From positions 22,682 through 86,681 of the IMG/VR virus record IMGVR_UViG_3300034691_000037: a stretch of 64,000 bases of DNA. One strand, given 5' to 3'. The notes under the pieces were generated by a model, which worked only from the letters and a program-made list of their open reading frames with translations, had not been told where the DNA came from and ran no database searches. Positions 22,681 to 64,000 of the stretch are shown here, in pieces (the first letter of the stretch is position 1; the number at the start of each line of letters is the position of its first letter). The position numbers and the translations under genes are program-made. The stretch comes from a virus.

Positions 22681-22695
22681 GACAATATACCTTTA

Positions 22696-31838: not shown

Positions 31839-31870
31839 ATCGCTGTCCTTAAACAAAAAAAAGAAGGGGA

Positions 31871-32503: not shown

Positions 32504-32532
32504 ATCAGTGAAACTTATTTCAATCGTTTTTT

Positions 32533-32661
32533 TTACCGCTGAGCGAATGCTGCATGTGCAGCTTGTGCCTGACCTGCTTCGTCAAACACACCGCTGCCAA
32601 TACCGACCGCGCCAACAACGCCCATTACCAAACCGAATGCCAGCATTTTGAATTGTTTCAT
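32533..32661 (-). CDS. Tiny secreted or membrane protein (42 aa)
   Basis: MKQFKMLAFGLVMGVVGAVG begins a signal-peptide-like or membrane segment, then an Ala/Gln-rich tail (AGQAQAAHAAFAQR). The start at 32661 has AAGGAG upstream. It is not related by sequence to its tiny neighbours. Confidence 0.72.
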   Translation of the reverse strand: MKQFKMLAFGLVMGVVGAVGIGSGVFDEAGQAQAAHAAFAQR

Positions 32662-39451: not shown

Positions 39452-39465
39452 CAAAAAAAAGACAG

Positions 39466-57114: not shown

Positions 57115-58935
57115 TTACGCCACCTCTTTACACAGGTCTTTACGGGCTTCTTCTACCCACACATCCATCGGAAGCATCTTACACGCCATCTGCATGATCT
57201 CAACAGCGTTGACACGACCACCCGACATGTTTACGGCAATCAGTTTGAGATTAGCCTGAGACACGCCATGGATGCGACAAGGTTCGGCCAGTGTTGTTTC
57301 CTTCGCCACGTTCTGGATGATCCCTGCGATAGGGTACGTGGTCTCCACGTCAGCATCCGCGTTGAACATGTGAAGCATGGATTGAACTTCTGGCATGTCT
57401 TCAAACAAGAAGACCCCGGACGCTTCAACGTTGTGTGATGGGAATGCAATAATCCAACCTTCACGACCAGGCAACTTAAGGTCAAGTTGAGTTTTCATCT
57501 CATCGGAGGTTGAGCAGATGATGCGCTTACTTTTCTTCATTACGGAGAAAAGCATGTCCGTGCTGTTGATCCGGGGCTGCGAGTTAAAGTTCGAGTAATC
57601 AAGAGAACCTGCCAGTGTACTGATCTGGCTACTCAAGTCATCGTTCTTTTTGTTCAACACCCATACGCCAATGGAGTCGACGGCGTTATAAGAACCATAG
57701 CGGACTTTGTACTTGTGCTGCATTTCCATGTGCCAGTGAAGCGTCCCTTCAGGGATACCGCTGTCCTCTGTCTCATGGGAAAGCTTACCGATCTTCAATT
57801 GACGGTCAAGAACCGCCCCCAGGTTGTACCCACCCGTTTCTTTACCCTTGGCCTTACGCAACTGCCAATAGATCTGCATCGAGTCCAGGATGCGAAATGA
57901 GGAGGTCGATAGCATAACGTGCCATTGTTCCTGCGGTTCCATTCGAAACGATTTACCCGAGGAAGATTCACGGGTTTCCTTACCTTCGCGAGCTACTACT
58001 TTCCGATACCACGGCGGTACCCGAGGATCTGAGAATGCGTCAGTGACGCTACGACCCGCATATTCAATCGATTCAACCGCACGTTTAAAGTCGAAGAATA
58101 CGTTCCAGCCGGTTACGATGTCAGGTTGCGATAAGTGAAGGTGTTTCAACATCCCGTTGGTAATATCGAAATGCGTTGGCAACATAACGACTTTGAATTC
58201 CAAGTCCAAGATATCGTCTACCCACTGAGGGTATTCGCCTTTCTTGTCTTTGATACCATCCCGTAGTTTCCCGACCCACTGAGGAATGATCTCAGCATAG
58301 TCTTTGCGTAACAGTTCTTCGTAGTTTGGGATGTCTTTCGTCCACTGCTCGTTAGCATAGACGATGACTTCACGATCGTTGACTTCTGACCAAAGGATGG
58401 GGAGTTGTTTGGTCTGATCGATCACCCCATTCACATCGGTCTCAACGTCGATGATCGTTACTTCGTTCGGCTGGAAGGCGTTAGGCCATCTGTCTGTGTA
58501 GGCTTGCTTTAAAAATACTTCAGGACCTGGGTCTGTGCCGTAAAGATAATTACTACGCGCAATCTGACGTAAAGGAAGGCTCGGAGTACCAAAACCAAGT
58601 TTGCTGCAGATCTCTCGACGAAGATTACGCTGCGTGGACTTAAACATGTCAACGCGATCAAGGAATTCAAACTGAATCTTTTCAGGCTGGTTCTTACGAA
58701 AGGCTGGCTTTGTTACCCAGTAAGGTCGTTTGTAGTTCTCTGGAACGATCAGTGTTGGATAACGTTCGCCAGTGTCAAGAGTCACCCACATCTTGGCAAC
58801 AATGGCGTCGTCGTAATTCCCTTCATCTGCGTGTGTGGTGTAAGTGCCATGTTTGATCTCTTTAGAAACAATCCTTTCTTTCGGGATCGTTTTTAAATAA
58901 GCATCAATTTCTTGAGGGGTTTGAAACTTCTTCAT
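57115..58935 (-). CDS. Family B DNA polymerase: exonuclease region and motif A, C-terminal part absent
   Basis: 606 residues. Exo I is IIDVETD (D163, E165), Exo II is GWNVFFDF (N278, D282) and Exo III is YNAVDSIGV (Y416, D420), all 3'-5' proofreading motifs in order. Downstream, DADVETTYP (D529, Y534, P535) matches motif A spacing (D-x4-YP) of the polymerase palm. The chain then ends; motif B (Kx3NSxYG) and motif C (DTDS) are missing here and in the neighbouring gene. So either the catalytic palm is completed by a second gene outside this window, or the family has an unusual arrangement. Single-gene unit, divergent from the metallopeptidase. Confidence 0.82.
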   Translation of the reverse strand: MKKFQTPQEIDAYLKTIPKERIVSKEIKHGTYTTHADEGNYDDAIVAKMWVTLDTGERYPTLIVPENYKRPYWVTKPAFRKNQPEKIQFEFLDRVDMFKSTQRNLRREICSKLGFGTPSLPLRQIARSNYLYGTDPGPEVFLKQAYTDRWPNAFQPNEVTIIDVETDVNGVIDQTKQLPILWSEVNDREVIVYANEQWTKDIPNYEELLRKDYAEIIPQWVGKLRDGIKDKKGEYPQWVDDILDLEFKVVMLPTHFDITNGMLKHLHLSQPDIVTGWNVFFDFKRAVESIEYAGRSVTDAFSDPRVPPWYRKVVAREGKETRESSSGKSFRMEPQEQWHVMLSTSSFRILDSMQIYWQLRKAKGKETGGYNLGAVLDRQLKIGKLSHETEDSGIPEGTLHWHMEMQHKYKVRYGSYNAVDSIGVWVLNKKNDDLSSQISTLAGSLDYSNFNSQPRINSTDMLFSVMKKSKRIICSTSDEMKTQLDLKLPGREGWIIAFPSHNVEASGVFLFEDMPEVQSMLHMFNADADVETTYPIAGIIQNVAKETTLAEPCRIHGVSQANLKLIAVNMSGGRVNAVEIMQMACKMLPMDVWVEEARKDLCKEVA

Positions 58936-59011: not shown

Positions 59012-60310
59012 ATGGGTCAATATAACGAGTCGATGGAAGCAATTGCGTTCCAAATAAACGCTGACCTTCCAAAGGCCATCACCAACATCTTTCAGAAAAT
59101 TCTTGACATAAAAGCGGCCCGACCTGAGACCGATCAACTGCTGGAAGAACTGGGTGCTATCACTAAACAGGCCACAGGTCTGTACATCCTTCCACGATTG
59201 ATGGACGGCCCCCATCACAAAGCCTTTAACATGTTTGTCTTAGACCCGAACTTCAACGCCTTCTCACCCATCAACGAAAAGGCATCGGCGCTGATCGCTA
59301 AGTACGATCTGCAAAACGTTATTAAGCTCGATATCCTTAAAGGGACCATCGATCGCAAGAATGGTCGGGTAACGGGTTTCTACGGCACCATCCCGTTTGG
59401 ATCTGGTGTTAGCCTAGCTATGTTTAATGGCAGCTTCACCGCTAGCGAACTGGCCAGCATGTACGGGCACGAGACAGGTCATGCCTGGGTCATCTGTGAG
59501 TTCTTGGGCCAGACGCTACTGACTAACATGATTCTTGCTGAGCTAGTCGGCCGGATGGATGTACAGACAAGTGACGCTCGTAAATTTGCATTGGCTCGGT
59601 GCGCTCTGCAGCTGGCGGACGCCGATCAGAAGATCCCTGAGAACGTAACCAGCAGTGAAATCACCGCTCTGGTACTTGAAGGTCAGGTCAAGCGGATGCA
59701 GAAAGCCTACAACACCCGCTGGTACGACCAACGTCTTGCGGAGGCTATGTCCGATCAGTTTGCTGCGCGATGGGGCATGGGTAAAGATCTGGTGGTTGCG
59801 CTGGGTAAGTTGGAGCGCGCTAAAGGGTTTAGCGCCGAAGGCGGTTACGACAACATGTGGTTGGGGATCTTGGGTAACTTGCTCAACTTCGTATTGCTTC
59901 CTTACGGTGTTACATTGGCCGCAGGCGGCTCAGCCGCTGTTCTGCAAGTCATCCGCCGGCTGGCTGTTAGCTTTTCGGTGAGCTTCTTCCTAGGTGGTAC
60001 TACCTACGGTCTTAAAGAAGACACCTACCCTCCAATGCGTGCACGGATTCAAGGCATTCGCAATGAGATCGTTCATCTATTAAAGGATCAGCATCTGCCT
60101 AAAGAGGTGCGTGAACGCGCACTGGAAGATCTGAAGGTTATTGATGCTGAAGCAGGGAACGTTCACCCCTTTTCTAACGTTATGACACAGCTCTCTGCGT
60201 ATGTGTTAGATGTGGTATCTGGTAAGCATCACGTCATCGGTGCGAATCAGATGAAAGAAAACCTCGCTAATAATCGCTTTTTTGAATTCTCAGCCACCCA
60301 TCAAAGGTAA
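59012..60310 (+). CDS. Membrane-associated zinc metallopeptidase
   Basis: 432 residues. HETGH (153-157) is a zincin active site: two His ligands and the catalytic Glu. Downstream, E244-AMSD-248 in LAEAMSDQFAARWG has the E-x3-D third-ligand pattern of M48/M56-like peptidases. A hydrophobic stretch near 283-330 (LGNLLNFVLLPYGVTLAAGG onward to VSFFLGG) suggests two membrane helices. Its position beside a small protein and the eighth head paralog in a late-style plus-strand unit suggests a virion or lysis-time enzyme. Peptide substrate unknown. Confidence 0.82.
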   Translation: MGQYNESMEAIAFQINADLPKAITNIFQKILDIKAARPETDQLLEELGAITKQATGLYILPRLMDGPHHKAFNMFVLDPNFNAFSPINEKASALIAKYDLQNVIKLDILKGTIDRKNGRVTGFYGTIPFGSGVSLAMFNGSFTASELASMYGHETGHAWVICEFLGQTLLTNMILAELVGRMDVQTSDARKFALARCALQLADADQKIPENVTSSEITALVLEGQVKRMQKAYNTRWYDQRLAEAMSDQFAARWGMGKDLVVALGKLERAKGFSAEGGYDNMWLGILGNLLNFVLLPYGVTLAAGGSAAVLQVIRRLAVSFSVSFFLGGTTYGLKEDTYPPMRARIQGIRNEIVHLLKDQHLPKEVRERALEDLKVIDAEAGNVHPFSNVMTQLSAYVLDVVSGKHHVIGANQMKENLANNRFFEFSATHQR

Positions 60311-62126: not shown

Positions 62127-62159
62127 CATACACCCCCGGCACTGAGCCGGGGGTGTATG
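62127..62159. terminator. Bidirectional 14-bp hairpin between convergent genes
   Basis: CATACACCCCCGGC (62127-62140), loop ACTGA, GCCGGGGGTGTATG (62146-62159), then C. Confidence 0.88.
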
Positions 62160-62163
62160 CTGT

Positions 62164-62574
62164 TCATGTGCCTTTACTCAACTCCGCCTCAAGTTTCGCC
62201 GTTACCCCCGCGTTGTGCTTCTGAGCTTTACGACCCTCTACTAAATACTCCTCAAGGATATCCAAAGGATACTCAAGTAGCTTAGACAGAGGTTCGTTAG
62301 TCATCTCAGGAATACGACACGCCACCAACTCCCTCATCAAACCACGCAGACGGTTACCTGTCGCCATATCCTCGGCTGGGTGCATACGCATGATTGCCAT
62401 CTGGTTTTCAGGCTTGAAGCCCTCATTCACATGGTCAAACAAGCCGAAGGTCTGGTCGTAAGCTTCCAGAAGAATCAGCCGCTTAGTGCGGTCGTCATCT
62501 GTCTGTGTGTTAAGGATGATGTCGTAGGTGTGCGTGCCCGGCTTATACGGCGAGATACCTTCGCCAAAATCCAT
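62164..62574 (-). CDS. Downstream frame of a probable frameshift pair (136 aa)
   Basis: 136 residues from an ATG at 62574 that lacks any Shine-Dalgarno sequence. The same frame is open for 27 further codons upstream, to the T9 run at 62655-62663, with a TGA just before it. A minus-one slip there would fuse it to the C-terminus of the preceding protein. The product is helical and charged, as in the T part of tail-assembly chaperone pairs. It may be made as a fusion only, independently at low level, or both. Confidence 0.65.
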   Translation of the reverse strand: MDFGEGISPYKPGTHTYDIILNTQTDDDRTKRLILLEAYDQTFGLFDHVNEGFKPENQMAIMRMHPAEDMATGNRLRGLMRELVACRIPEMTNEPLSKLLEYPLDILEEYLVEGRKAQKHNAGVTAKLEAELSKGT

Positions 62575-62615
62575 CGCTACTACGTGATTGATTTTGGCGA
62601 GACCGGTATGTTTAT

Positions 62616-64000
62616 CTACGGTCTGTGTCTTGCTATGCTGCGGCGGAGTAGGGTAAAAAAAAACTCAGACGGGTTGATCGTTACCAATGCTGGGTGATCC
62701 AACTTGATACCTTCGTCTTTGTCGATTGGCTGCTTACACTTCGGACAGTGCACTTTTGGAATGCAAACTGTCGTCAGGGTCATGGCCGCGATGAATTTCT
62801 CCAAAGCGTCGGTGAACTTCTTGGTCAGTTCAGGGTCAGAAGCGAAGTCACGCAGGAAGTCATCGATTTCCCTGTCCGCTTCGAACTGCTGATCAGGCGT
62901 AGAACCTTCTGGTAACAGACGGGTCTGAATCACCTCAGGTTCGGCTTCCAGCTCATCGCCTTGACGCACCACCGCCTCAACCCAGCAGGCATAGGCCATC
63001 ACAGTGGATATCTGCTGAGCCCGCAGCAGATAGTTCTGACGATCTTCTTCACGAGCATTACTGGAGATCAGCTGCTTGGATTCAGCAGTCATGTTATCGA
63101 GCCACGCTGTAGATGTCGACTCGTACTGCGCCAATGTAGGCACACGCAGTTTCAGCCGAACGCCATTACCCAGGTCAATGTAACGGCTAACTTCAGGCCG
63201 CATCTTGGCTTGGTAATTCAGGATGGTCTTGATATCGTGTTGACCGCTACGCTTGGACATGAACCGTTTCTGGTGTTCGTCCAAACGACTATCGAGTACG
63301 ATGACCATGCGGTTGATGTTCAGCAAGTCCGTGATCTCGCCATCGCAGTTAAGTGCAGAGTTAGTGCAATAACGAGTGACAGGGAAACCTTTTGGAAACA
63401 GGCTGAACGCCATGCTGGTGATCATCTGATCGAAGTCAAGCAGGGTGATGATGCTTTTCAGGGTTTTGGGATCAACCGTACCCGCGGTGGTGTTCAAGAA
63501 ATGCTTGATGGCAAAGTCTGCCAACTCACGGTTCAGGAACACTGCCGGTGCTGCAAGCGAATAGCCTGCAGATTCCATGGCCTCCCGTACCTTTTCCTGA
63601 CCGAGCTGCGTATCCAGACCCAATTGAGCCAACGCCCCCGGTGCAATCATTCGTACATGCAGGCCCGAACCCCACATTGGGAACGCAACGCGCTGAGACA
63701 GACCCAGTGCGTCACGCACGGCCATCATGCCGTTACCGTTCTTGGCCGGCTGTACCAAACCCATCATGATGGGGATGTCATCGACCAGTGGACGGTTGGT
63801 GGCAGCTTCACCTTCTTCGATGATATCGCCGATGTGGTTGAATGACACCTGACGAAGGTGTTGCGCAACCTGATTCATGGCCTGCTGTTCAGGTTCGGTG
63901 ATATAGATCTTACCCACCCCATCCAAATCGAGCTGGATGAACTGGTCACGCGGAAGACCCTGGTTGATTTTCGAATAGCGGTCGCGCTGAGCAGCGAAGA
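62616..64000 (-). CDS. T4 gp26-like baseplate/tail-chaperone candidate, 5' end beyond window
   Basis: The frame is open to the window edge (upstream reads FAAQRDRYSKINQGLPRDQF), so the start is not here and at least 461 residues are visible. The C-terminus shows VHCPKCKQPIDKDEG then INPSEFFF. A late CxxC ribbon followed by N/D-P-x-x-FF is the pattern I associate with the T4 gp26-type baseplate/tail-assembly family. The zero frame ends 13 codons after the FFF codons. A T9 run inside those codons is a candidate slippage site linking to 62164-62574. Confidence 0.6.
   Translation of the reverse strand, partial: FAAQRDRYSKINQGLPRDQFIQLDLDGVGKIYITEPEQQAMNQVAQHLRQVSFNHIGDIIEEGEAATNRPLVDDIPIMMGLVQPAKNGNGMMAVRDALGLSQRVAFPMWGSGLHVRMIAPGALAQLGLDTQLGQEKVREAMESAGYSLAAPAVFLNRELADFAIKHFLNTTAGTVDPKTLKSIITLLDFDQMITSMAFSLFPKGFPVTRYCTNSALNCDGEITDLLNINRMVIVLDSRLDEHQKRFMSKRSGQHDIKTILNYQAKMRPEVSRYIDLGNGVRLKLRVPTLAQYESTSTAWLDNMTAESKQLISSNAREEDRQNYLLRAQQISTVMAYACWVEAVVRQGDELEAEPEVIQTRLLPEGSTPDQQFEADREIDDFLRDFASDPELTKKFTDALEKFIAAMTLTTVCIPKVHCPKCKQPIDKDEGIKLDHPALVTINPSEFFFTLLRRSIARHRP
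62655..62663 (-). other. T9 homopolymer slippery site
   Basis: The minus strand reads GAG TTT TTT TTT ACC in the zero frame. Slipping back one base gives TTT then TAC CCT, entering the frame of the 62164-62574 gene without a stop. It is a candidate for ribosomal frameshifting or polymerase slippage; a sequencing length error in the run is the main alternative. Confidence 0.5.

Follow-up and report, generated by a model that had tools for sequence, protein, structure and literature searches.

A conserved T run and a probable programmed −1 frameshift in the gp26-like gene of phiKZ-like jumbo phages

We analysed a 64,000-nucleotide stretch of viral DNA (positions 22,682 to 86,681 of the IMG/VR virus record IMGVR_UViG_3300034691_000037), hereafter called the window. 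We focused on two overlapping reading frames of its minus strand, which correspond to the gene pair gp77 and gp76.4 of the jumbo phage phiKZ. Very probably, the two frames are one gene that gives a short and a long product by a programmed −1 ribosomal slip at a run of Ts, and these products are probably the short and the long tail-assembly chaperone (TAC). The comparative evidence for this concerns the slip site, the relation between the frames, the open −1 frame and the selection acting on it.

Two reading frames meet at a T run

On the minus strand, the upstream open reading frame (ORF; the 0 frame) ends with ...NPSE-FFF-TLLRRSIARHRP and a stop, the codons around the phenylalanines being CCG TCT GAG TTT TTT TTT ACC CTA CTC. 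The nine Ts encoding Phe-Phe-Phe, which the initial annotation had singled out, lie at the C-terminal Phe-Phe of the window's homologue of phiKZ gp77 (Table 1). This gene lacks its 5' end because the contig stops at the end of the window. The same annotation had described the downstream frame as shut by a TGA before the run and open afterwards, and had stated that its first ATG has no ribosome site; we confirmed both. The TGA closes the −1 frame ahead of the slip site, so that starts located further upstream in this frame cannot reach the extension. After the TGA, the frame reads FFYPTPPQHSKTQTVDKHTGLAKINHVVAMDFGEG... for 165 codons until the stop at 62164, and we found no Shine-Dalgarno-like (SD-like) sequence before its ATG. 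The junction peptide expected from a −1 slip is LDHPALVTINPSEFFFYPTPPQHSK in the window and ...STFFYFGGLEV... in phiKZ.

The run of nine Ts (T9) exceeds every other homopolymer of the window in length; A8/T8 runs also occur at 31855-31862, 32527-32534 and 39453-39460. A run as long as T9 is expected about 0.6 times by chance. Hence, its length alone is no evidence of a slip site; the evidence is its conservation.

Table 1. Features of the frameshift gene in the window and of its 3' flank.
Feature	Position	Strand	Basis
Slippery site, T9 run; TTT TTT TTT (FFF) in the 0 frame, contains T_TTT_TTT	62655..62663	-	Homologous T run in 98/98 relatives
TGA closing the −1 frame, one codon 5' of the T run	62665..62667	-	Sequence
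TAG stop of the 0 frame (short product), 12 codons past the T run	62616..62618	-	Sequence
Upstream gene, 0 frame, 460 amino acids present; predicted T4-gp26-type (TAC-N-like) protein, phiKZ gp77 homologue; short product ends ...SEFFFTLLRRSIARHRP	62616..63998	-	phrog_4585, tblastn, predicted fold
−1 frame extension, 165 codons and stop (FFYPTPPQHSK...AELSKGT, stop); putative C-terminal part of the long (TAC-NC-like) product; phiKZ gp76.4 homologue	62164..62661	-	phrog_12109, alignments, purifying selection in relatives
First ATG in the −1 frame, the earliest start of any kind and likely the annotator's choice for a separate gene; position not conserved	62572..62574	-	Codon 29 after the T run
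14-bp hairpin catacacccccggc-actga-gccgggggtgtatg between the frameshift gene and the convergent plus-strand gene	62127..62159		Read from the sequence

The slip site is conserved in relatives

The locus had no blastn match among phages. Using tblastn with the upstream protein we found matches in 136 jumbo-phage records. In the search for related loci, the window protein alone and a first broad alignment gave nothing usable, and closer sub-alignments were productive. We gathered 98 distinct relatives, i.e., 21 phage isolates (including phiKZ, 201phi2-1, SPN3US and Goslar) and 77 IMG/VR loci; counts out of 99 add the window. The gp77/gp76.4 pair is kept in jumbo myoviruses of Pseudomonas, Erwinia, Klebsiella, Salmonella, Vibrio, Aeromonas, Burkholderia, Xanthomonas, Serratia and Escherichia. 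To avoid circularity, we anchored the site by its 0-frame peptide (typically [LIV]xP[ILV]Dxxxx-FF-xL) and inspected the other frames afterwards.

Each of the 98 relatives has a T run at the homologous site, after which the −1 frame stays open for 151-182 codons. The 0-frame stop is variable, 10 to 46 codons past the site, and the +1 frame has a mean of about 25 codons. The −1 frame is often shut 1-4 codons before the site, as in the window and in phiKZ, pEa_SNUABM_54, FBKp24, PS2, Kodama and sm033. The T run and the frame relation on which the initial annotation relied are therefore conserved, but the length of nine Ts is not. In relatives the runs are mostly T5 to T8, many of them ended by a C (TTTTTC); the element that persists is the heptamer T_TTT_TTN, or a close variant, at the conserved Phe-Phe, with the codons TTT TTT or TTT TTC nearly everywhere. 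A T precedes these codons (heptamer position 1) in 87 of the 99 loci. The codon exceptions are five closely related loci with CTT TTT ATT, JHP1101 with CTT TTT, and pEa_SNUABM_54 with TTT TTG; they still allow the Phe tRNA to re-pair one base back. The CTT TTT ATT subgroup (L059-L065; slip T_TTT_A, of the single-tRNA type) has a −1 frame open for 176-179 codons.

The first Phe codon at the site is TTT in nearly all loci, compared with 31% TTT for Phe elsewhere in the same genes. None of the 40 other Phe-Phe pairs in these genes starts with TTT, and T_TTT_TT does not occur in frame at any of the 51,885 other codon positions.

Coding constraint precedes any start codon in the −1 frame

The first ATG, GTG or TTG of the −1 frame is found at codon 87 of 167 in phiKZ, codon 70 in RAY, codon 60 in pEa_SNUABM_54 and codon 153 of 156 in locus L066. 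We searched the homologues for separate genes with a clear ribosome site, and found none: only 12 of the 99 loci have an SD-like start by codon 66 of the −1 frame, and several loci have no start in this stretch at all, whereas the start of the upstream gene itself has an SD-like sequence in 60 of 98 loci. Downstream start positions are not conserved, unlike the slip site, and published annotations set them inconsistently and mostly leave the two genes apart, by 75-219 nt in FLC9, Viktualia, DT01, pEa_SNUABM_54 and phiKZ. The gp76.4 of phiKZ (PHIKZ_p26; L011:3438-3940) is annotated with about 80 amino acids, compared with 167 residues in the conserved −1 frame. This record seems truncated, because the longer frame has no start before codon 87.

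We tested for selection in 40 pairs of close relatives, which are not mutually independent, using the region from the 0-frame stop to the first possible −1 start. The differences at positions 1, 2 and 3 of the −1-frame codons numbered 57, 32 and 135, respectively, and the single changes in this frame were 99 synonymous and 17 nonsynonymous. Where the two frames overlap, changes were about four times rarer than in the region after the 0-frame stop. In most phages, the residues conserved in the extension (FF, P, H..FG) precede any start. The substitution patterns argue strongly that the DNA before any −1 start is under protein-coding constraint and would be reachable only by a frameshifted ribosome. 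The minus-one frameshift put forward in the initial annotation is thus supported both by the conserved arrangement in relatives and by selection ahead of any start.

The short product resembles T4 gp26

The upstream protein matched phrog_4585 (E 2.7e-71), which corresponds to phiKZ gp77, and the part downstream of the ATG matched phrog_12109 (E 1.9e-13), which corresponds to gp76.4. The second match enters the profile at position 25, so the version started at the ATG looks truncated. PHROGs 4585 and 12109 are the two halves of this gene, but they are listed as separate families of unknown function and their link by frameshift is unrecorded. Pfam scans of both halves gave nothing relevant. Neither the window protein nor nine full-length relatives matched PF12322 (E up to 1-5); hence, the window protein is not filed as a member of this family.

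We modelled the read-through product of the window with AlphaFold2, the modelled sequence having one Phe fewer than the natural product owing to how the shift was written. The predicted local distance difference test scores (pLDDT) of the core (residues ~100-350 and 380-420) were mostly near or above 90, and those of the extension were lower. Foldseek matched the model to predicted T4-like baseplate hub assembly proteins, including gp26 of Vibrio phage VH7D (E 3e-5 to 4e-4, probability 1.00), with TM-scores to the target of about 0.5-0.6 (0.59 for the match at E 3e-5). It gave no match in the PDB, and thus no solved relative. With hhalign, the jumbo-phage profile matched the gp26 family with a probability of 80% (E 1.4e-5; 60% with a smaller set), and the alignment ended at the same terminal Phe-Phe. 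The initial annotation had called the upstream protein gp26-like: the profile-profile comparison and the predicted fold agree on this, although sequence families alone do not reveal it. The model thus suggests that the upstream protein has the fold of T4 gp26, the short TAC.

The T4 proteins gp26 and gp51 are paralogous: each falls in PF12322 (T4_baseplate) and phrog_150, and BLASTP pairs them at 2e-6. T4 gp26 ends with ...CPECGKTHAHVIRGLKEFFELL, and gp51 runs about 50 residues past the equivalent ...VFKLL. The slip site of the jumbo phages corresponds to the end of T4 gp26, beyond which the paralogue gp51 extends. The T4 and jumbo proteins are alike in predicted fold and profile, and in a C-terminal zinc-ribbon-like CPxC followed by the ...FF that closes the short form. 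They differ in that T4 has two divergently transcribed paralogous genes and no slip site: at the equivalent position gp26 has TTC TTT, and the −1 frame is shut after two codons. The jumbo protein has large insertions and is two to three times the size of T4-type gp26 (~480-690 against 208-285 amino acids), and its extension is longer than the ~50 residues of T4 gp51.

Mechanism and alternative explanations

Most ribosomes would read the 0 frame through Phe-Phe-Phe and stop 12 codons later, which would give a short protein with the T4 gp26 (TAC-N) fold. In some ribosomes, tRNA-Phe on the U run would re-pair one base back, and translation would shift into the −1 frame, ending at the stop at 62164. 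The long product would then carry the gp26-like part and a C-terminal domain (TAC-NC-like). That ribosomes slip, how often they do so, that the slip is of the tandem type and that the products act as chaperones are all inferences. By analogy, tandem or single-tRNA movement of tRNA-Phe on the U run is the most likely mode of slippage; both operate at other U-rich −1 sites. The two products would act as short and long TAC, like gpG and gpGT of lambda and as is thought for T4 gp26 and gp51. This is their most likely function judging from the predicted fold, the short/long design and a split that falls on the same residue as in T4 26/51.

Several points weigh against this interpretation. Heptamer position 1 is not a T in 12 of the 99 loci, where only A-site or single-tRNA slippage pairs well. 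There is no strong conserved stimulator: the mean z-score of downstream folding, for structures without pseudoknots, is -0.36, and an upstream SD-like motif occurs in 4 of 99 loci. The case for slippage is argued by comparing sequences, and that for a chaperone function comes from a predicted fold. No annotated tape-measure gene adjoins this gene; the annotations within 2-3 kb of it are RNA polymerase subunits, a helicase and hypothetical proteins. The hhalign comparisons of jumbo-phage profiles with single T4 gp26 or gp51 sequences were not significant, a result superseded by the comparison between families. The extension aligned to the gp51 tail with E 0.009 and a probability of 4.5%, the stretches 'SLxEFLxLPR' and 'SLxEiExMxPWE' lining up; the homology of these two regions is at most suggestive.

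The best surviving alternative is that the frameshift is real and its products are not TAC but another jumbo-phage factor built on the same fold. We regard this as rather unlikely. The absence of Pfam matches and of an adjacent annotated tape-measure gene, the RNA polymerase subunit and helicase genes nearby, and the large size of the protein would all suit such a factor, but the match to T4-type gp26 in fold and profile extends across the core, and the short and long forms split at the same Phe-Phe. In the record of 201phi2-1, gp136 and gp135 carry no mass-spectrometry note, whereas the nearby gp138 and gp139 do; this would be expected of a chaperone and fits that function weakly.

Genome annotations assume two separate genes, in which the downstream ORF uses its own ATG, GTG or TTG, perhaps translationally coupled to the stop of the upstream ORF, and the −1 frame is only incidentally open ahead of this start. 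The loci with an SD-like start in the first 66 codons are compatible with this view, and so is gp135 of 201phi2-1, annotated from a start that overlaps the upstream stop. Yet, the late first starts of phiKZ, RAY, pEa_SNUABM_54 and L066, the conserved residues and strong purifying selection upstream of any start, and the conservation of the slip site instead of the start positions make two genes very improbable. Translational coupling of the gp135 kind was rejected as a general mechanism because some relatives lack any start at that place.

Transcriptional slippage has equally little in its favour. The phage RNA polymerase would add or drop Us on T9 and produce mixed mRNAs, for which the T9 of the window is, on general grounds, long enough. 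However, relatives keep the arrangement with the shorter, often C-terminated runs described above, and the run stands in codon register as T_TTT_TTN, which is a need of ribosomes and not of polymerases. Finally, a sequencing or assembly error might hide one continuous ORF or two ordinary ones, given that homopolymers are prone to errors and that the window is only a fragment of a virus record. This has a negligible probability and is excluded for the family, because 98 further loci show the identical frame relation, 21 of them from sequenced isolates whose runs are shorter.

Known frameshifted chaperones and the T4 gene pair

The slip sequence of lambda is GGGAAAG. Like lambda gpG/gpGT, the jumbo-phage gene would have a long product with a C-terminal extension. 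It differs by its U-run slip at Phe-Phe, the lack of detectable sequence homology, a first ORF that is several times larger, and its position, which is not between annotated tail tube and tape-measure genes. Frameshifted TAC of lambda and other phages are well known (Levin 1993; Xu 2004; reviewed in PMC5009743). A GTTTTT slip was argued for the TAC of Vandenendeviridae and Andersonviridae (PMC12846349). These are also myovirus chaperones with a poly-T −1 slip, supported by the same kind of comparative evidence, but they belong to different phage families and are encoded upstream of the tape-measure gene.

According to citing passages in PMC10885494 and PMC12846349, the chaperone genes of T4-like phages (gp26 and gp51 as short and long TAC) were identified by Vladimirov et al. 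2022. Some T4-like phages are also described as having, in place of frameshifting, one short gene and a second, longer one that is a fusion (PMC10885494), and poly-T slip sites in T4-like TAC genes are mentioned (PMC12846349). Our search of the open-access literature found no report of a frameshifted chaperone in phiKZ-like jumbo phages (Vladimirov et al. 2022 being known to us via citing papers only). Frameshifted chaperones are thus known in themselves; new here is an unannotated instance in which the first product is unusually large, the extension is long and no stimulator is obvious.

We also found such T runs in T4-like phages that have no full-length gp51 beside gp26, i.e., Vibrio phi-ST2, Aeromonas phiAS5, Caulobacter Cr30, Stenotrophomonas Moby, Prochlorococcus P-HM2 and all 58 cyanophage loci. 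In these phages gp26 ends with TTT TT[TC] just before the stop and leads into a gp51-like −1 extension (4 of the 58 cyanophage loci end early at contig ends). The heptamer is T_TTT_TTC, or T_TTT_TTT in Cr30. The −1 frame of cyanophages, FFR[IL]...L..YY..NF.LM..HKYSL.E.ENM.PWEREIY, resembles the gp51 tail. The T run at the terminal Phe-Phe is shared with jumbo phages, but here the 0-frame stop comes after a single further codon and the −1 extension has only 58-70 codons.

The ORFs annotated as 'gp51' or 'hub assembly catalyst' (~30-57 amino acids; L119-L199, L118, L200-L203) are short ORFs started inside the −1 extension. In Ackermannviridae, gp26 ends with GTTTTCATCTGA / ATTTTCATTTAA (L117:3675-3870, L204:2290-2465), and the −1 frame shares an unannotated extension, HLIFE[IV]DL[IL]SYF.MCD.LK.HGYS.FEIS..MPWHLDL.

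The initial annotation had suggested that a slip in this lineage would link the frameshifted arrangement to the two genes of T4. The link is upheld, its T4-like side being already in the literature (PMC10885494, PMC12846349). We lean slightly towards a scenario in which the Phe-Phe frameshift is ancestral and homologous in T4-like phages, cyanophages, perhaps Ackermannviridae, and phiKZ-like jumbo phages. In T4, one frameshifting gene would thus have given way late to a duplicated pair, the separate genes 26 and 51, and the tail assembly of phiKZ-like phages would depend on an unrecognised recoding event.

Other features of the window

The hairpin between the frameshift gene and the convergent gene (Table 1) is probably a two-way terminator, judging from its sequence. 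On the plus strand, positions 59012-60310 encode a phrog_2767 protein whose HExxH motif (MYGHETGHAWV) may mark a metalloprotease. On the minus strand, positions 57115-58935 encode a protein of 606 amino acids that matches phrog_3011 (DNA polymerase, E 2.5e-140) and has no Pfam polymerase match.

Implications

Nucleus-forming jumbo phages are studied mainly through phiKZ and its relatives, and yet nearly all the records we inspected annotate this gene pair as two unrelated hypothetical proteins, the second of which is often truncated. If the frameshift and the chaperone function are true, they would provide a candidate tail-assembly chaperone for phiKZ-like phages and correct the gene models of many genomes. 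The history of the split between T4 genes 26 and 51 would also become directly testable.
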